DNA of 64,000 bases from Erythrobacter sp. YJ-T3-07. Lineage in GTDB: Bacteria; Pseudomonadota; Alphaproteobacteria; Sphingomonadales; Sphingomonadaceae. This document shows, in pieces, positions 41,153 through 47,047 of this stretch. A program made the translations under genes and the position numbers. The DNA lies in contig NZ_JAEAGP010000001.1 of the NCBI RefSeq assembly GCF_015999305.1, positions 2,356,001 through 2,420,000 of the forward strand, given 5' to 3'. The first letter of the stretch is position 1, and every line of letters starts with the position of its first letter. The notes beneath the pieces were generated by a model. It had not been told where the DNA came from. It did no database searches and saw only the letters and a list, made by a program, of their open reading frames with translations.

Positions 41153-41740
41153 ATGCCCGCAAGGATGACGCCCGAGATCGCGATTTTCGTCCGCTGGCCG
41201 GAGCCGGGCAAGGCCAAGACCCGACTGATCCCGACGCTGGGCGCCGAAGGCGCGGCGCAGCTCTATCGCACATTGCTGGAACTGACCGTGCGCGAGGCAC
41301 GCGGCAGCGGCCTGCCGTTCCACCTGCGGGTGACCGGCGGCGACCCGGCGCGCTTCCGCGAGTGGCTCGGCAGCGATCTCGACGTGCGCGACCAGGGGGG
41401 CGGCGACTTGGGTGAAAAGCTGACCCGCGTACCCACGCCGGGGATGATGATCGGCAGCGACTGCCCGGGCCTGACTGCCGCGCTGTTGCGCGAGGCTGGC
41501 GATGCTCTTTCGAGCCACGAAGCAGTGGTCGGCCCGGCGGATGATGGCGGTTACTGGCTGCTCGGCCTCCGCGCGCCCTGCCCCGACCTGTTCGTCGACA
41601 TGGCGTGGAGCACGGACGCGGTCTTCCCCGAAACCATGCGGCGGCTTGAGGCCAGGGGGATCGCCCCGCACCTGCTGCCCGAGCTGACCGATATCGACAC
41701 GGGCGAGGATCTCGCCGCATGGCCGGAACTGCTGGCGTGA
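41153..41740 (+). CDS. TIGR04282-type arsenosugar biosynthesis glycosyltransferase
   Basis: This 195-residue GT-A-fold protein of the rSAM/selenodomain-associated transferase 1 family is annotated in other genomes as an arsenosugar glycosyltransferase. The nucleotide-binding opening is AIFVRWPEPGKAKTRLIPTLG; metal or substrate motifs include GSDCPGL and VGPADDGGYWLLG. The second in-frame ATG (41165) is an alternative start. It overlaps the TIGR04283 gene by 4 bp (GTGA). It forms part of the 41.1-47.1 kb block with the ArsM-type gene. Confidence 0.88.
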   Translation: MPARMTPEIAIFVRWPEPGKAKTRLIPTLGAEGAAQLYRTLLELTVREARGSGLPFHLRVTGGDPARFREWLGSDLDVRDQGGGDLGEKLTRVPTPGMMIGSDCPGLTAALLREAGDALSSHEAVVGPADDGGYWLLGLRAPCPDLFVDMAWSTDAVFPETMRRLEARGIAPHLLPELTDIDTGEDLAAWPELLA

Positions 41741-42465
41741 GCGACACAAGCGTCACGATCGTGGTGCCGGTGCTGAACGAGGCGGCGGCGATTCCCGCGC
41801 TCGCCACGCATCTCGCCACACTCGACCCAAAGCCTGCGCAGGTCATTGTCGTCGATGGAGGGAGCAGCGACGACACGCTTGCTCTGGCGCGCGCAGCCGG
41901 ATGGCAGACACTCTCCGCCGAGCGTGGCCGCGCGCGGCAGATCAATGCGGGGGTCGAAGCCGCCGAGGCGCCCCTTGTCTGCGTGGTCCATGCCGACAGC
42001 TTTCCGCCCGCCGACATGGTCACGGTGATCCGCGAGACGCTGGCCGACAGCCGCATCGCGCTCGCCAGCTTCACTCCGCTGATTACCGGCGCAAAGACCC
42101 GCTGGCTGACCAGCGCGCACAATTACGTGAAGACCTGGTACGCGCCGCTGCTGTGCCGCCCGCACGAGTTCGTGCGCGGGGTGCGGCTGCTGTTCGGCGA
42201 CCACGCGATGTTCTTCCGCCGCGCCGACTTCCTGACCATTGGCGGCTGTACACCGGGCGACATGGTGATGGAGGAAGCGGATCTATGCGTGAAATTCGCG
42301 CGGCTGGGCCGTATCCGCATGGTCCCCCGCGTGGTGCGCACATCGGACCGGCGGATCGCCGCGTGGGGTCCGCTCAAAGCCAACTGGATCTACTTCAAGG
42401 TCGGCATCCTGTGGGCACTCGGCCTGCGCGGACGCATGGAGCGCGACTACCCCGATATCCGGTGA
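41737..42465 (+). CDS. TIGR04283-type arsenosugar biosynthesis glycosyltransferase
   Basis: This 242-residue family 2 glycosyltransferase of the rSAM/selenodomain-associated transferase 2 group has the opening VTIVVPVLNEAAAIPALATH, the nucleotide-binding IVVDGGSSDDTLA and the catalytic-type HADSFPP. The start is GTG 41737, overlapping the previous stop as GTGA; an ATG at 41719 inside the previous gene is less likely. The two transferases are usually found together, often near arsM, as here. The sugar donor and acceptor are unknown. Confidence 0.9.
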   Translation: MSDTSVTIVVPVLNEAAAIPALATHLATLDPKPAQVIVVDGGSSDDTLALARAAGWQTLSAERGRARQINAGVEAAEAPLVCVVHADSFPPADMVTVIRETLADSRIALASFTPLITGAKTRWLTSAHNYVKTWYAPLLCRPHEFVRGVRLLFGDHAMFFRRADFLTIGGCTPGDMVMEEADLCVKFARLGRIRMVPRVVRTSDRRIAAWGPLKANWIYFKVGILWALGLRGRMERDYPDIR

Positions 42466-42466
42466 G

Positions 42467-43501
42467 CTAGCGCGCCAGCACTCCGGCGGCGGGCAGGAAG
42501 CCTTCGTCCGTGCAGAAATCGATCAACCGGCGCAGATAGGCCTCGTCCGCCGGGCCGGATTCGATCCCGGTGAGCGAGCGAAAGCGGCTGTCGTCGAAGC
42601 GCGGGTCGCGCTGGAAATAGCTCGCATAAAGCGCCGAAACCCGCCCATGCAGCCGCCGTTCGAGCGGTGGCAGAGTGCTCGCATCGAAGCGCGCGGGATC
42701 GACCAGCGTGGGCGAGCGCAGGCCTTCGACCGAGCCGATCCCGCGCGCGAAATCGGCCATCGGCAGCGGCTCGGACGGGACAAGGTGGTAGGTTCCACCG
42801 CGTGCAGCCTCCCACTGCTCCGCCATCGCGGCGATCCCGCCAGCGACATGGTCGATCGGCACGAAGGCGAGCGTCGCGTCCGCCCCTGCCGGGACCAGCC
42901 TGATGCGCCCCTCCGCGATCAGCCGGAACGCCACATAAAGCGCGTCGAACTGGCGCACCCGGCCGCTTTCGTATTCGCCCAGCGTGATCCCGGGCCGCGC
43001 GATCGCCCAGTCGAGGCCGGAGGCACGCACCAGCCGCTCGCCAGCAGCCTTGCTCGCCTCGTAGCCATTGGCGAAACCTCTGTCGGGCAGTGGATCGTCC
43101 TCGCGGATCACCCCGTCGCGCGTGCCGCAGACATAGGCCGTGCTGACATGCAGCAGCCCTGCTCCGCCCGCCTGCGCCAGCGCGACCACATTCGCCGTGC
43201 CGCGCGTGTTGGTCGCCTCGTACTCGGCGTCGGTCAGATCGAAGCGGATCGTGGCCGCGCAGTGGATCACGAGGTCGTGCGACTGCGCCAGCCGGTCGAA
43301 GGTCGCTGCGTCCAGCCCCAGCCGCTCGCGCCGGATATCGCACGGCACCGCCTCGGCAATCGCCACCTCGCTCCCGTCGTTCGCGCGCACCTCGGGGTTG
43401 CGGTGGACCAGCGCGGTCACCCGATGCCCTGCGGCGACAAGACGCGCGCAAACCTCGCCGCCGATCAGCCCGGCGGCACCCGTTACGAGAATCCGGCTCA
43501 A
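42467..43501 (-). CDS. NAD-dependent epimerase/dehydratase (extended SDR) next to arsM
   Basis: This 344-residue extended SDR has an N-terminal Rossmann motif ILVTGAAGLIGG, the Ser/Tyr/Lys active site (HVSTAYVCG, YEASK) and a substrate-binding C-terminal half. It probably acts on a nucleotide sugar or a sterol/lipid alcohol. The start is TTG 43501, which overlaps the ArsM stop as TTGA, so the two are coupled. That coupling makes a role in modifying the product of the arsenic pathway likely but unproven. Its 3' end converges on the TIGR04283 transferase with a 1-bp gap. Confidence 0.9.
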   Translation of the reverse strand: MSRILVTGAAGLIGGEVCARLVAAGHRVTALVHRNPEVRANDGSEVAIAEAVPCDIRRERLGLDAATFDRLAQSHDLVIHCAATIRFDLTDAEYEATNTRGTANVVALAQAGGAGLLHVSTAYVCGTRDGVIREDDPLPDRGFANGYEASKAAGERLVRASGLDWAIARPGITLGEYESGRVRQFDALYVAFRLIAEGRIRLVPAGADATLAFVPIDHVAGGIAAMAEQWEAARGGTYHLVPSEPLPMADFARGIGSVEGLRSPTLVDPARFDASTLPPLERRLHGRVSALYASYFQRDPRFDDSRFRSLTGIESGPADEAYLRRLIDFCTDEGFLPAAGVLAR

Positions 43502-44550
43502 CAGCAGCCGCCGCCGGTCGCGACCTGGGGCGTAGCCCCGGCAAGCGGAAACAGCGTGCCGCAATCGGGATAGATGCCGTAATGCGTGCCGAAGTCGCCG
43601 AAGAACTCGAAATGCTCGGCAAAGCGTGTGTCGGCCAGCATCTTCCAGCTATTGCCGCACACCGAAAACATACGCCCGCGTTCGATCCGGTGATGATCGT
43701 CGAGCACGAAGACGCGTTCTTCGCCCGCGACCGTGCCCTTGTAGCGAACCGCCTGCCCGTAATCCTCGCACAGCGGCTCAAGCTCGGGCAGCTTGAACAG
43801 GCGCGCGGTGGCCGAGTGGAAGGCGATCCCGTCCAGCTTTTCCTGAATTTGCGGGTCATTGATCCCCAGCGGGCGGCTGGTGACCAGTCGCGGGTCAAGG
43901 AACCCGGCAGCCTTGGCCGAGGCGATGAAGTCGAACCAGTACATCGCGCCCGAAAGGCACTCGCCATGCAGCACGGGATCGTCGCGCAGACCCTCGGGCA
44001 CGCGGCGGTCGGAATAGACGTCCGAGAAATACAGCTCCCCGCCGGGCTTGAGCAGGCGGTAGGCCGCGTCGAACACCGCCCGCTTGTCTGCCACCAGGTT
44101 GATCACGCAGTTGGAGACGATCACGTCGAAGCTGCCATCTTCCAGATCGAGGTCGCCCAGCTTTTCGATGTCGCCCTCGATGAAGCGCACGTTGCTCTTC
44201 GCGTAACCGAACCGCTCGCGGTGCCATTCCTCATGCTCGCGGGCGACCGCCAGCTGCGCGGGGGTCGCGTCGACGCCGGTAACAGAGCCATTCTCGCCCA
44301 CCATCTGCGCCAGCAGATAGGCGTCCTGGCCGCTGCCCGAACCGAGATCGAGCACCTTGGCCCCCTCGATCGCCTGCGGGGCAACCAGCCCGCAACCGTA
44401 ATAGCGCGCGCGGACATCCTCATGCACATTGCGCAGCAGCGCCATCAGCGCGGGCGGCGGTGCGTCGAGAGTGCAGCAGGCATCGGTCTTGAGATCGGCG
44501 GAGCCTTGCAGCACCTCGCCATAATAGTTCTGCGAATTTTCGAGATTCAT
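43498..44550 (-). CDS. arsM: Arsenite methyltransferase, ArsM type
   Basis: This 350-residue S-adenosylmethionine-dependent methyltransferase has the SAM-binding loop VLDLGSGSGQDAY (residues 66-78). Four cysteines, Cys26 (ACC), Cys53 (YYGCGL), Cys148 (SNCVINL) and Cys198 (GECLSG), show nearly the same spacing as the arsenic-binding cysteines of characterised ArsM. It ends in a Gly-Gly-Gly-Cys-Cys tail. ArsM methylates trivalent arsenic to mono-, di- and trimethylated forms. ATG 44550 lacks a close ribosome-binding site. The product probably feeds the coupled SDR and the nearby transferases and radical SAM protein. Confidence 0.9.
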   Translation of the reverse strand: MNLENSQNYYGEVLQGSADLKTDACCTLDAPPPALMALLRNVHEDVRARYYGCGLVAPQAIEGAKVLDLGSGSGQDAYLLAQMVGENGSVTGVDATPAQLAVAREHEEWHRERFGYAKSNVRFIEGDIEKLGDLDLEDGSFDVIVSNCVINLVADKRAVFDAAYRLLKPGGELYFSDVYSDRRVPEGLRDDPVLHGECLSGAMYWFDFIASAKAAGFLDPRLVTSRPLGINDPQIQEKLDGIAFHSATARLFKLPELEPLCEDYGQAVRYKGTVAGEERVFVLDDHHRIERGRMFSVCGNSWKMLADTRFAEHFEFFGDFGTHYGIYPDCGTLFPLAGATPQVATGGGCC

Positions 44551-44633
44551 GAAACGTTTCGACCCTTGCCTGCGAATATGCCACACACAGCACGAGGTTC
44601 GGTTCTCGGGCAAGCTTGGTTTCAGGGACAGGC

Positions 44634-46055
44634 ATGAAATTTACCCATGACGTGATCGTGATCGGCGCGGGGTCCGCCGGTCTCACCGCTGCGGGCGGCT
44701 GCGCGATGTTCGGCCTGAAGGCCGCGCTGATCGAGCGGGCCGAGATGGGCGGCGAGTGCCTCAACAACGGCTGCGTGCCGTCGAAGGCGCTGATTACCGC
44801 CGCCAAACGCGCAGCGGAAGCGAACGAGCACGAACGCTTCGGCATCCAGATGGCCGCCGCGAAGGTCAACTGGAGCGGCGTGCACGCGCATATCCACGAA
44901 GCGATCGCGCACATCGCCCCGCACGACAGCCAGGAACGGTTCGAGGAGATGGGCTGCGACGTCTATCGCGGCCACGCGCACTTCATCGGCCCGCGCAAGG
45001 TGCAGGTCGGCGATGTCGAGCTGAGTGCCCCAAAGATCGTCATCGCCACCGGATCCGAACCGATGGTGCCGCCGATCGAGGGGCTGGACACCGTCCCCTA
45101 CCTGACCAACGAGAATATCTGGGATCTCGACCAGTTGCCCCAGCACCTCGTCATCATCGGCGGCGGGGTGATCGGGATGGAGATGGCGCAGAGCTTCCGT
45201 CGGCTGGGCAGCGAAGTCACCATCATCGAACCGGGCGACCTGATGAGCCGCGACGATCCGGAATCGGTCGCGGTGGTGGTCGAGCAAATGAAGACCGAAG
45301 GGGTGATGTTCGTGAAGGGCACAGCCGCCAAGGTGACGCCCGGCGTGCTCGCCAGCCTCACCGTGACGCTGGAGGACGGGCAGGAAGTTGCGGGCACGCA
45401 TCTGCTGATCGCCACCGGGCGCAAGGCACGCACCGAAGGCTACGGGCTGGAGGAGATCGGCGTCGAGCTTGGCCGCAACGGGATCAAGGTTGACGCGCGG
45501 CGGCGCACGAACCTCAAGCATATCTACGCGATCGGCGATTGCCGAGAAGGCCCGCGGCTGACGCATGTGTCTGGCTACGAAGGGTCCAACGTCGCGCTGG
45601 AAATCACGCTGGGCGTGCCGACCAAAGTCGACTGGTCCGCCCTGCCCTGGTGCACCTATACCGACCCCGAAGTCGCGCAGATCGGGATGACCGAGGCGCA
45701 GGCGCGCGAGGAACTGGGCGACAAGGTGACCGTGGTGCGCGAAGGCTTCGACGACAACGAGCGCGCCATTGCGGAAGGGGACACGCGGGGCCACCTGAAG
45801 GTGGTGATGGTCGGAAAGAAAGTTCTCGGCGCCAGCATCGTCGGCAAAAATGCGGGCGAGATGCTGCTGCCGTTCACGCAAGCGATTACCGGCAAGGCGA
45901 GCACCTTCGCGCTTGGCAGCGCGATCATCGCCTATCCGACCCGTAGCGAGATCACCAAGGCGGCAGCGTTCAGCGCGTGGGAGGGCACGGTGTTCGGCAG
46001 CATGCCCAAAGGCTACGCCAGAACGCGCGCCTGGTTCAGGAAGACGCTGCGCTGA
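44634..46055 (+). CDS. FAD-dependent disulfide oxidoreductase (MerA/LpdA fold)
   Basis: This 473-residue class I pyridine-nucleotide-disulfide oxidoreductase has the FAD loop IGAGSAGLTAAGG, the redox pair Cys42/Cys47 in GGECLNNGCVPSKAL, the NAD(P) loop IIGGGVIGMEMAQS and a C-terminal dimer domain. At the usual catalytic His-Pro of the dimer domain it reads Tyr-Pro (YPTRSE), as in mercuric reductases and some relatives. No MerA metal-binding CC tail is present. ATG 44634 follows CAGGGACAGG. The stop overlaps the radical SAM start (TGATG). Reduction of an arsenic-thiol intermediate is an inference. Confidence 0.9.
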   Translation: MKFTHDVIVIGAGSAGLTAAGGCAMFGLKAALIERAEMGGECLNNGCVPSKALITAAKRAAEANEHERFGIQMAAAKVNWSGVHAHIHEAIAHIAPHDSQERFEEMGCDVYRGHAHFIGPRKVQVGDVELSAPKIVIATGSEPMVPPIEGLDTVPYLTNENIWDLDQLPQHLVIIGGGVIGMEMAQSFRRLGSEVTIIEPGDLMSRDDPESVAVVVEQMKTEGVMFVKGTAAKVTPGVLASLTVTLEDGQEVAGTHLLIATGRKARTEGYGLEEIGVELGRNGIKVDARRRTNLKHIYAIGDCREGPRLTHVSGYEGSNVALEITLGVPTKVDWSALPWCTYTDPEVAQIGMTEAQAREELGDKVTVVREGFDDNERAIAEGDTRGHLKVVMVGKKVLGASIVGKNAGEMLLPFTQAITGKASTFALGSAIIAYPTRSEITKAAAFSAWEGTVFGSMPKGYARTRAWFRKTLR

Positions 46056-47047
46056 TGGCGTCGCGTTCCAAAAGCCGCAACGCGCCGCAAGGCCCCTCGC
46101 CCTTCGCGGTCGAGGCCGAGGCTCTGCCCGAAGGCAAGTTCACCGATCCCGACATCACCGCCAACGGATCGCCGCGCGCGCAGGTCCCGCTGCTGGAGCT
46201 GGAGACGCTGTGGCTGTGCACCGGCACGCTGTGCAATCTCGCCTGCGCCACCTGTTATATCGAGAGCAGCCCGACCAACGACGCGCTGATCTATCTGACC
46301 GCAGAGCACGCCGCGCGCTATTTCGACGAGATCGAGCGCGATGGATGGTCGACGCGCGAGATCGGCTTCACCGGCGGCGAGCCGTTCATGAACCCGCATT
46401 TCATGGCCATGCTGGAAGACGCGCTCTCGCGCGGGTTTGAAGTGCTGGTGCTGTCCAATGCGATGAAGCCGATGCGTCTGCACGAGGCCAAGCTGCTGGC
46501 CCTGCGCGAGGCCTATGGCGACAAGCTGACGATCCGAGTCAGCCTCGACCACCACACCAAACCCGTGCACGAGGGCGAGCGCGGGCCGAACAGCTGGGAT
46601 GCCGCGATCGACGGGCTCCGCTGGCTGTCCGAGCACGGTTTTCGTATCGCGGTCGCAGGAAGGCTGCTGCCCGGCGAGGGCATGGTCGAGGCGCGCGAGG
46701 GCTATGCCGCGCTGTTCGAGCGAGAGACCATCCGCATCGACGCGCATGATCCCTCACGCTGCGTGCTGTTTCCAGAGATGGACGCGGACAAAGACGTCGC
46801 GGAGATCACCACGGCCTGCTGGGACATTCTGGGCAAGTCGCCTGCCGACATCATGTGCGCAACCAGCCGCATGGTCGTCCACCGCAAGGGCGAACCTACC
46901 CCGCGCGTGGTCGCCTGCACGCTGATCCCGCATGATCGCGAGTTCGACTTCGGCGAGACGCTGGCCGATGCCAACGTCGCGGTGAAGCTGAACCACCCGC
47001 ACTGCGCGCGCTTCTGCGTGCTGGGCGGGGCGAGTTGTTCGGCCTGA
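46055..47047 (+). CDS. Radical SAM protein in the putative organoarsenical cluster
   Basis: This 330-residue radical SAM enzyme has the 4Fe-4S motif CNLACATC (Cys60, Cys64, Cys67) and an extra Cys55 just upstream. The GGEP motif is FTGGEPFMNP. The C-terminus carries three more cysteines (Cys317, Cys321, Cys328 in HPHCARFCVLGGASC), together with CATSRM and VACTLIP, which suggest an auxiliary iron-sulfur site. It has no obvious match to the ArsS (selenodomain) or ArsL (RCCLKC) arrangements. It overlaps the FAD enzyme gene. Adding an organic group to arsenic is the natural hypothesis given the neighbours. Confidence 0.85.
   Translation: MASRSKSRNAPQGPSPFAVEAEALPEGKFTDPDITANGSPRAQVPLLELETLWLCTGTLCNLACATCYIESSPTNDALIYLTAEHAARYFDEIERDGWSTREIGFTGGEPFMNPHFMAMLEDALSRGFEVLVLSNAMKPMRLHEAKLLALREAYGDKLTIRVSLDHHTKPVHEGERGPNSWDAAIDGLRWLSEHGFRIAVAGRLLPGEGMVEAREGYAALFERETIRIDAHDPSRCVLFPEMDADKDVAEITTACWDILGKSPADIMCATSRMVVHRKGEPTPRVVACTLIPHDREFDFGETLADANVAVKLNHPHCARFCVLGGASCSA

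Follow-up and report, generated by a model that had tools for sequence, protein, structure and literature searches.

We analysed a 64,000-nucleotide stretch (the window) of the 3.3 Mb genome of the marine alphaproteobacterium Erythrobacter sp. YJ-T3-07 (GCF_015999305.1; contig NZ_JAEAGP010000001.1, positions 2,356,001 to 2,420,000, forward strand), in which a group of adjacent genes may encode an arsenosugar-type pathway. An initial annotation had described a candidate six-gene organoarsenical pathway arranged in three overlapping pairs within 5.9 kb, and all six reading frames are present. The first pair, on the + strand, consists of T82 (41153–41740), a CofC-like protein of family TIGR04282, and T83 (41719–42465), a TIGR04283-like family-2 glycosyltransferase (PF00535); with starts read from the DNA, the two frames overlap by 22 nt. 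The second pair lies on the – strand and comprises an extended short-chain dehydrogenase/reductase (SDR; 42467–43501) and a putative arsenite methyltransferase, ArsM (43498–44550), the TTG start of the SDR overlapping the ArsM stop codon at 43498–43500. The third, again on the + strand, is formed by a flavin adenine dinucleotide (FAD) disulfide oxidoreductase (44634–46055), referred to here as the flavoenzyme or FAD, and a radical S-adenosylmethionine (SAM) protein with a PF04055 domain, referred to here as rSAM' (46055–47047); these overlap by 1 nt. The six genes do form a conserved unit, but its extent was drawn too narrowly: a gene for a fatty-acid-hydroxylase superfamily protein (FAH; PF04116; 40303–41115, – strand), divergent from the T82 start at 41153, recurs with the unit and is proposed as its seventh member.

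The family names originally given to these proteins agree with our scans, although T83, ArsM and rSAM' score below curated cut-offs. T82 passes the TIGR04282 cut-off (183 bits; cut-off 134), matches Pfam DUF2064, and resembles nucleotidyl- or nucleotide-sugar transferases, including PDB 3cgx, a putative nucleotide-diphospho-sugar transferase (E 2.4e-25). T83 is just under the TIGR04283 cut-off (162 bits; cut-off 182). The flavoenzyme is PRK06370/MerA-like, with a CX4C motif (CLNNGC), and scores 391 bits against PRK06370.1-3 (cut-off 620); it also matches the mercuric reductase structure 5x1y (E 9.4e-74). Its identification as a mercuric reductase was rejected because it scores 336 bits against curated MerA, below the cut-off of 454; MerA carries a C-terminal cysteine pair, which is absent from the sequence here. 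The methyltransferase is ArsM-like yet below every curated NCBIfam ArsM cut-off, the best profile being PRK11873 (167 bits; cut-off 263), with 145 bits against 500 for another ArsM profile and 95 against 400 for arsenosugar ArsM. Residues 7–341 match the arsenite methyltransferase structure 5evj (E 2.8e-106), and C25, C53, C148 and C198 align with cysteines of 4fr0, which we take to be the structure of CmArsM, and are invariant across 12 homologues. An ArsM is recognised by cysteines equivalent to CmArsM 44, 72, 174 and 224, according to the available text of PMC5552862; by way of the 4fr0 alignment all four arsenic-binding cysteines are kept in the window protein, in support of its designation as an ArsM-type methyltransferase.

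The radical SAM protein belongs to no named family and lies below every NCBIfam cut-off given here. Against ArsS (TIGR04167), the radical SAM enzyme that accompanies ArsM in the cyanobacterial arsenosugar pathway, it scores 58 bits where the cut-off is 300, in keeping with the earlier remark that it is not of the usual type. Its best NCBIfam profile is that of the Rv1681 family (NF049973), which it resembles over the core domain and from which it differs in scoring 89 bits against a cut-off of 380 and in a match that stops at residue 208 of 330. Identity between rSAM' and ArsS is 21–24% in the aligned proteins, and in an alignment of 12 sequences, six of them ArsS, eight cysteines (the CX3CX2C motif and five C-terminal residues) are invariant in rSAM', in bridging proteins and in ArsS. 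The rSAM' family itself has nine invariant cysteines.

The distribution of both enzymes was examined in 249 genomes of the family, 385 genomes of the class Alphaproteobacteria, and a phylum sample of 90 genomes (67 non-alphaproteobacterial and 23 alphaproteobacterial). rSAM' is present in 72 of the family genomes and 115 of the class genomes, one of the latter (G379) having a 36% relative; ArsS above its cut-off is found in only two class genomes, G277 and G409. In the phylum sample ArsS occurs in 46/67 non-alphaproteobacteria and 0/23 alphaproteobacteria, and rSAM', searched by profile, in 5/23 alphaproteobacteria and in two of the 67 others, as distant proteins of about 200 bits (G650 and G702). 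No genome of the class (0/385) or phylum (0/90) sample contains both at E 1e-40. Three streamlined genomes of 1.2–1.3 Mb (G361, G558 and G635) keep rSAM' and have no ArsM match. In G558 and G361 (loci L089 and L090) rSAM' is followed by a membrane protein, with a VTT domain by Pfam in L089 and assigned by similarity in L090; G361 also holds a weak T82 homologue (79 bits) adjoining T83 (L173). The rSAM' matches of G173 and G226 each contain one in-frame stop, a possible sign of decay or a sequencing error, and in G053 the end of the contig cuts the gene (L144). In L015 (8840–10945) rSAM' shares one open frame with an upstream metallophosphoesterase-like (MPE) stretch, to which Pfam gave no name; it resembles the MPE that adjoins rSAM' in L044, L057, L058 and L065 and that occurs close to ArsS in two further loci, L145 and L146.

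Of the named relatives identified, Alteriqipengyuania abyssalis (96% identity in the radical SAM protein) and Citromicrobium bathyomarinum (94%) are the nearest. Sixteen named loci contain this protein. In 15 of them, which all bear names of Sphingomonadales, the gene order is conserved, although some lack ArsM; the remaining one, L015 (Beijerinckiaceae), has only rSAM' of the set. A comparison of gene order in relatives, suggested in the initial annotation, found the same order at about 50–75% protein identity in relatives whose flanks differ.

Neighbours, defined as matches of at least 50 bits within 8 kb of rSAM' (TVP38 by split queries), were counted in 116 loci: 40 drawn from the 72 hits in the family, 60 drawn from the 115 in the class, and the 16 named loci, together 55 family and 61 class loci. 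These are not independent, L129 repeating L004 and others being close relatives. The family loci contain T82 (48), T83 (48), SDR (45), FAD (43), ArsM (27), FAH (21), a 5'-methylthioadenosine (MTA) phosphorylase homologue, MtnP (19), and TVP38 (1); the class loci contain T82 (11), T83 (11), MPE (5), FAD (4), TVP38 (3), and MtnP, FAH and ArsM (2 each), and none has the SDR. From these counts, the persistent core is rSAM', T82 and T83, and the SDR is clade-specific at the sensitivity used. A simpler version with T82, T83, rSAM' and MtnP is seen in L119, L121 and L122, clusters without FAD in L110, L125 and L131, and rSAM' without the other genes nearby in L111, L114 and L126–L128. Genes that we take from their sequences to be metZ-like and apaG-like lie near rSAM' in 25 of the 61 class loci each (for example L035, L036 and L059), which may be plain synteny.

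The association of rSAM' with T82 extends to whole genomes. Among 40 class genomes with rSAM' and 40 without, taken in handle order, TIGR04282 is found at E 1e-8 in 40/40 and 6/40, respectively, and above the curated cut-off in 32/40 and 3/40; in genomes of at least 2 Mb the figures are 38/38 and 6/20. One of the six T82 genomes without rSAM', G277, has a canonical ArsS; the remaining five lack both enzymes at E 1e-40, and T82 can thus exist without either. T83 lies in the fetched sequence in 35 of 39 T82 loci (34 from genomes with rSAM' and five from genomes without).

ArsM follows rSAM' closely, though not the reverse. All 47 of the 249 family genomes with ArsM also have rSAM', counting G053, where it is cut by the contig end, and G173 and G226, where it contains a stop. 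In the class, ArsM is found in 14 genomes at E 1e-30. The match reaches at least E 1e-85 in 11 of these, every one of which has rSAM' (in G379 as the 36% relative), as do two of the three weaker ones (G342 and G458, not G394). The co-occurrence gives Fisher p values of 3e-32 (family) and 1e-6 (class), uncorrected for kinship. Linkage is not required: in G445, G017, G111 and G223 a single contig carries the two genes more than 400 kb apart, and other genomes, some of them fragmented assemblies, have them on separate contigs. In five genomes of one genus (L133–L137) the unlinked ArsM adjoins the SDR and the flavoenzyme.

ArsM is missing from seven of the 16 named loci (L004, L005, L008, L009, L010, L013 and L014), all of which retain the remaining five genes. 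Searched genome-wide, five of the seven have none at E 1e-8 and two have a partial 35% match (1e-9 to 1e-10); the PRK11873 profile finds no match in any of the seven at 1e-25, and the L015 genome likewise has no ArsM match. ArsM is dispensable to the unit. The organoarsenical pathway first proposed is supported in its arsenosugar-type logic but needs revision as to ArsM, which is inessential; an organoarsenical product is suggested by the partners, together with ArsM in those loci that have it, and the core genes by themselves would not imply one. Partial but strong ArsM-profile matches of about 95–105 residues (92–119 bits), sitting in frames of 314–454 aa, occur in G360, G406, G389, G273, G279, G322 and G401, and perhaps represent another ArsM-like group in rSAM' genomes.

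Proteobacterial ArsS loci offer a direct comparison. Canonical ArsS loci L145 and L146 have the order T82, TVP38, FAD, ArsS, MtnP, T83, MPE (with TVP38 and FAD as a single open frame in L145), and L197 has the order MtnP, ArsS, TVP38, FAD, T83, T82, ArsM. The same kinds of partners are found in rSAM' loci L147, L123, L082 and L042, and L213 has a distant rSAM' relative with T82, ArsM and MtnP. The arsenosugar-cassette partners (T82, T83, FAD and phosphorylase) are thus common to ArsS loci L145, L146 and L197 and rSAM' loci L147, L123 and L082; the full set is rare. The flavoenzyme had been regarded as extra to the known arsenosugar logic, a view that does not survive: homologues 40–41% identical to that of the window lie directly before ArsS in L145 and L146, and the flavoenzyme is near ArsS in 5 of 18 non-alphaproteobacterial loci. 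The phosphorylases of L145 and L082 are of the MTAP type and just under its cut-off (264 and 268 bits; cut-off 275). A dedicated phosphorylase in the window was rejected: the only MtnP match of the genome, which passes the MTAP cut-off (282 bits), lies about 143 kb from the cluster.

The SDR was also called extra relative to the arsenosugar pathway; this is borne out, and FAH is likewise extra, so that a new metabolite is possible. The SDR matches PF07993 (131.6 bits; NAD_binding_4/Epimerase by family scan), and its motifs TGAAGLxGG and YEASK are invariant in 12 sequences. Its AlphaFold model (predicted local distance difference test, pLDDT, 84) points to a thioester-reductase fold, with 4u7w and 4w4t as the best PDB folds (template modelling scores, TM, of 0.82 and 0.81 by query). 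These are terminal reductase domains of polyketide synthases or nonribosomal peptide synthetases, which reduce acyl thioesters. FAH scores 80 bits against PF04116 (gathering score 31) and 79 bits against OlsE (cut-off 475). FAH and T82 occur together in 21 of the 55 family loci and are divergent neighbours in all 21, an arrangement kept in L109 and L130 despite inversion of the T82/T83 block; in L147 and L164 FAH is beside the T82/T83 pair and not divergent. The SDR fold and FAH placement hint at a lipid alcohol acceptor, which is a reasonable guess. Algae contain arsenosugar phospholipids and arsenosugar-phytol compounds, as reported in the accessible part of PMC11009773.

The divergent intergenic region between ArsM and the flavoenzyme (44551–44633, no strand assigned) contains a GGTTTC box at 44618–44623. 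In 20 of 39 related loci (four near-duplicates dropped) the 45 nt preceding the flavoenzyme gene contain GGTT[AT]C, positioned at about –15 to –30 from its start, and 500 single-base shuffles gave a mean of 0.7 and a maximum of 4 such loci, the loci themselves being related. It is a possible shared regulatory or promoter element. GTAACC often mirrors it near the divergent start. An RNA element or riboswitch was rejected, as a scan of the window against Rfam gave no match at the gathering threshold.

On balance we favour an arsenosugar-type pathway with rSAM' replacing ArsS, the product of the cluster being probably an arsenosugar or arsenic lipid made by a variant route. Because of the common cysteines, the common partners, and the co-occurrence with ArsM and T82, rSAM' most likely performs the ArsS step. 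From the gene set, its conservation and co-occurrences, and the cysteines of ArsM and of rSAM' and ArsS, we infer a scheme in which each reaction, the order of steps and the arsenic substrate of rSAM' are conditional and the lipid acceptor is the weakest step. ArsM would convert arsenite to dimethylarsenite, and the flavoenzyme would use NAD(P)H to keep arsenic intermediates trivalent. rSAM' would join the 5'-deoxyadenosyl radical of SAM to arsenic, yielding 5'-deoxy-5'-arsinoyl adenosine, on chemical grounds the kind of nucleoside that an MTA phosphorylase could split; removal of adenine by that enzyme would give 5-deoxy-5-arsinoyl-ribose 1-phosphate. T82 would then activate the sugar 1-phosphate as a nucleotide sugar, T83 would transfer the arsenosugar to an acceptor, and the SDR and FAH may make or modify a lipid alcohol as that acceptor, so that the product would be a lipid-linked arsenosugar. 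Where a genome has no ArsM, the starting material of the cassette might be arsenite itself or methylarsenicals that the cell scavenges.

Several observations weigh against this pathway. Compared by profile, rSAM' and ArsS align over the core domain only, the C-terminal cysteine match comes from one multiple alignment, of rSAM', bridging and ArsS proteins, and the predicted rSAM' model is mediocre (pLDDT 72), its fold matches being generic radical SAM enzymes (BlsE comes first, with TM 0.46, and none of the top matches exceeds 0.52). Within 8 kb, T82 or T83 is found in only 11 of the 61 class loci and MtnP in only two. The full cassette is exceptional at the sensitivity used in the 18 non-alphaproteobacterial ArsS loci too, which contain FAD (5), ArsM (5, some weak), T82 (2), T83 (2), TVP38 (2), FAH (1), MtnP (1) and MPE (0). 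No arsenic-specific regulator, for which no dedicated search was made, was seen among the scanned neighbours. What raises most doubt is the lack of a recognisable ArsM in the majority of rSAM' genomes: of the 115 in the class, 102 give no match at E 1e-30 and 104 are without the orthologous type, and in 40 rSAM' genomes PRK11873 gives a long match in six (that of G356 with an internal stop) and a match to about 100 residues in seven more. The core pathway may therefore not act on methylated arsenic, or not on arsenic at all.

It is accordingly conceivable, though we think it rather unlikely, that rSAM', T82, T83 and the phosphorylase make an arsenic-free 5-deoxy-5-substituted ribose conjugate, ArsM and its neighbours having been recruited in some lineages, or ArsM being merely a detoxification gene parked there. 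The excess of rSAM' (115 of 385 genomes) over ArsM of the window type (11), the loss of ArsM alone in seven of 16 named relatives, and the persistence of rSAM' in the three 1.2–1.3 Mb genomes would all fit; every genome found with ArsM of the window type, however, has rSAM' as well, including those in which more than 400 kb lie between the genes, and lack of ArsM does not distinguish rSAM' systems from ArsS systems, because the two class genomes with ArsS (G277 and G409) likewise give no ArsM match at E 1e-30. ArsM loss with retention of the other genes would also be explained if rSAM' acted first on arsenite, as ArsL does in arsinothricin synthesis, with ArsM methylating afterwards and ArsM-less strains making an unmethylated form; Burkholderia arsL alone in E. 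coli gives AST-OH, to which arsM adds a methyl group, by the account in the available text of PMC8552651. We consider this order improbable: rSAM' has cysteines and partners in common with ArsS, an adjacent phosphorylase implies an adenosine intermediate, and ArsL has only three conserved cysteines (PMC8552651, same text), as against nine invariant ones in rSAM'. That the genes are ordinary neighbours with no joint pathway is very improbable; the nearest relatives do retain the flanking genes (MATE, malate synthase and fumarase) as well, but in more distant ones these change while the set stays, and the co-occurrences hold without linkage. On the same grounds of conservation and unlinked co-occurrence, a chance neighbourhood was rejected.

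The arsenosugar-type pathway with rSAM' can be set beside known systems. With the cyanobacterial pathway (ArsM and ArsS, with TIGR04282/TIGR04283 partners) it shares the four ArsM cysteines and a radical SAM enzyme with the eight aligned cysteines, and its T82, T83, FAD and MTA-phosphorylase-type partners match those in the proteobacterial ArsS loci examined here; it differs in that rSAM' is only distantly related to ArsS, in the added SDR and FAH, and in that ArsM is optional. Radical SAM adenosylation of arsenic in arsenosugar synthesis is described second-hand in the accessible part of PMC12159101. The arsinothricin genes arsQML, as presented in the available text of PMC8552651, likewise combine ArsM with a radical SAM enzyme in C–As bond formation, and ArsM is dispensable for the first product; that text predicts that ArsL transfers an aminocarboxypropyl group and names no sugar genes in the cluster, and the cysteines of rSAM' are ArsS-like. 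The bisenarsan cluster also yields a bacterial organoarsenical secondary metabolite, but according to the accessible description in PMC12159101 its C–As bond is formed without SAM enzymes and a 5-enolpyruvylshikimate-3-phosphate (EPSP) synthase homologue is required.

The strongest new statement is that rSAM' would be the alphaproteobacterial counterpart of ArsS. More tentatively, rSAM' may be a second, alphaproteobacterial family of arsenic adenosyltransferases, standing in for ArsS in about 30% of the class, streamlined genomes of 1.2–1.3 Mb included. In this clade it may feed a route of seven genes that leads to a lipid-linked arsenosugar, with an alcohol part made by a thioester reductase and modified by a hydroxylase. 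In the open-licence literature searched we found no paper on genes for an arsenosugar or arsenolipid route in Alphaproteobacteria, nor on an ArsS counterpart in this class. Much of the arsenic in seaweed is held as arsenosugars and arsenolipids, as stated in the available part of PMC6656958. With a class-wide ArsS counterpart and a list of its genetic parts, arsenosugar and arsenolipid synthesis by bacteria could be tested directly in tractable marine strains.

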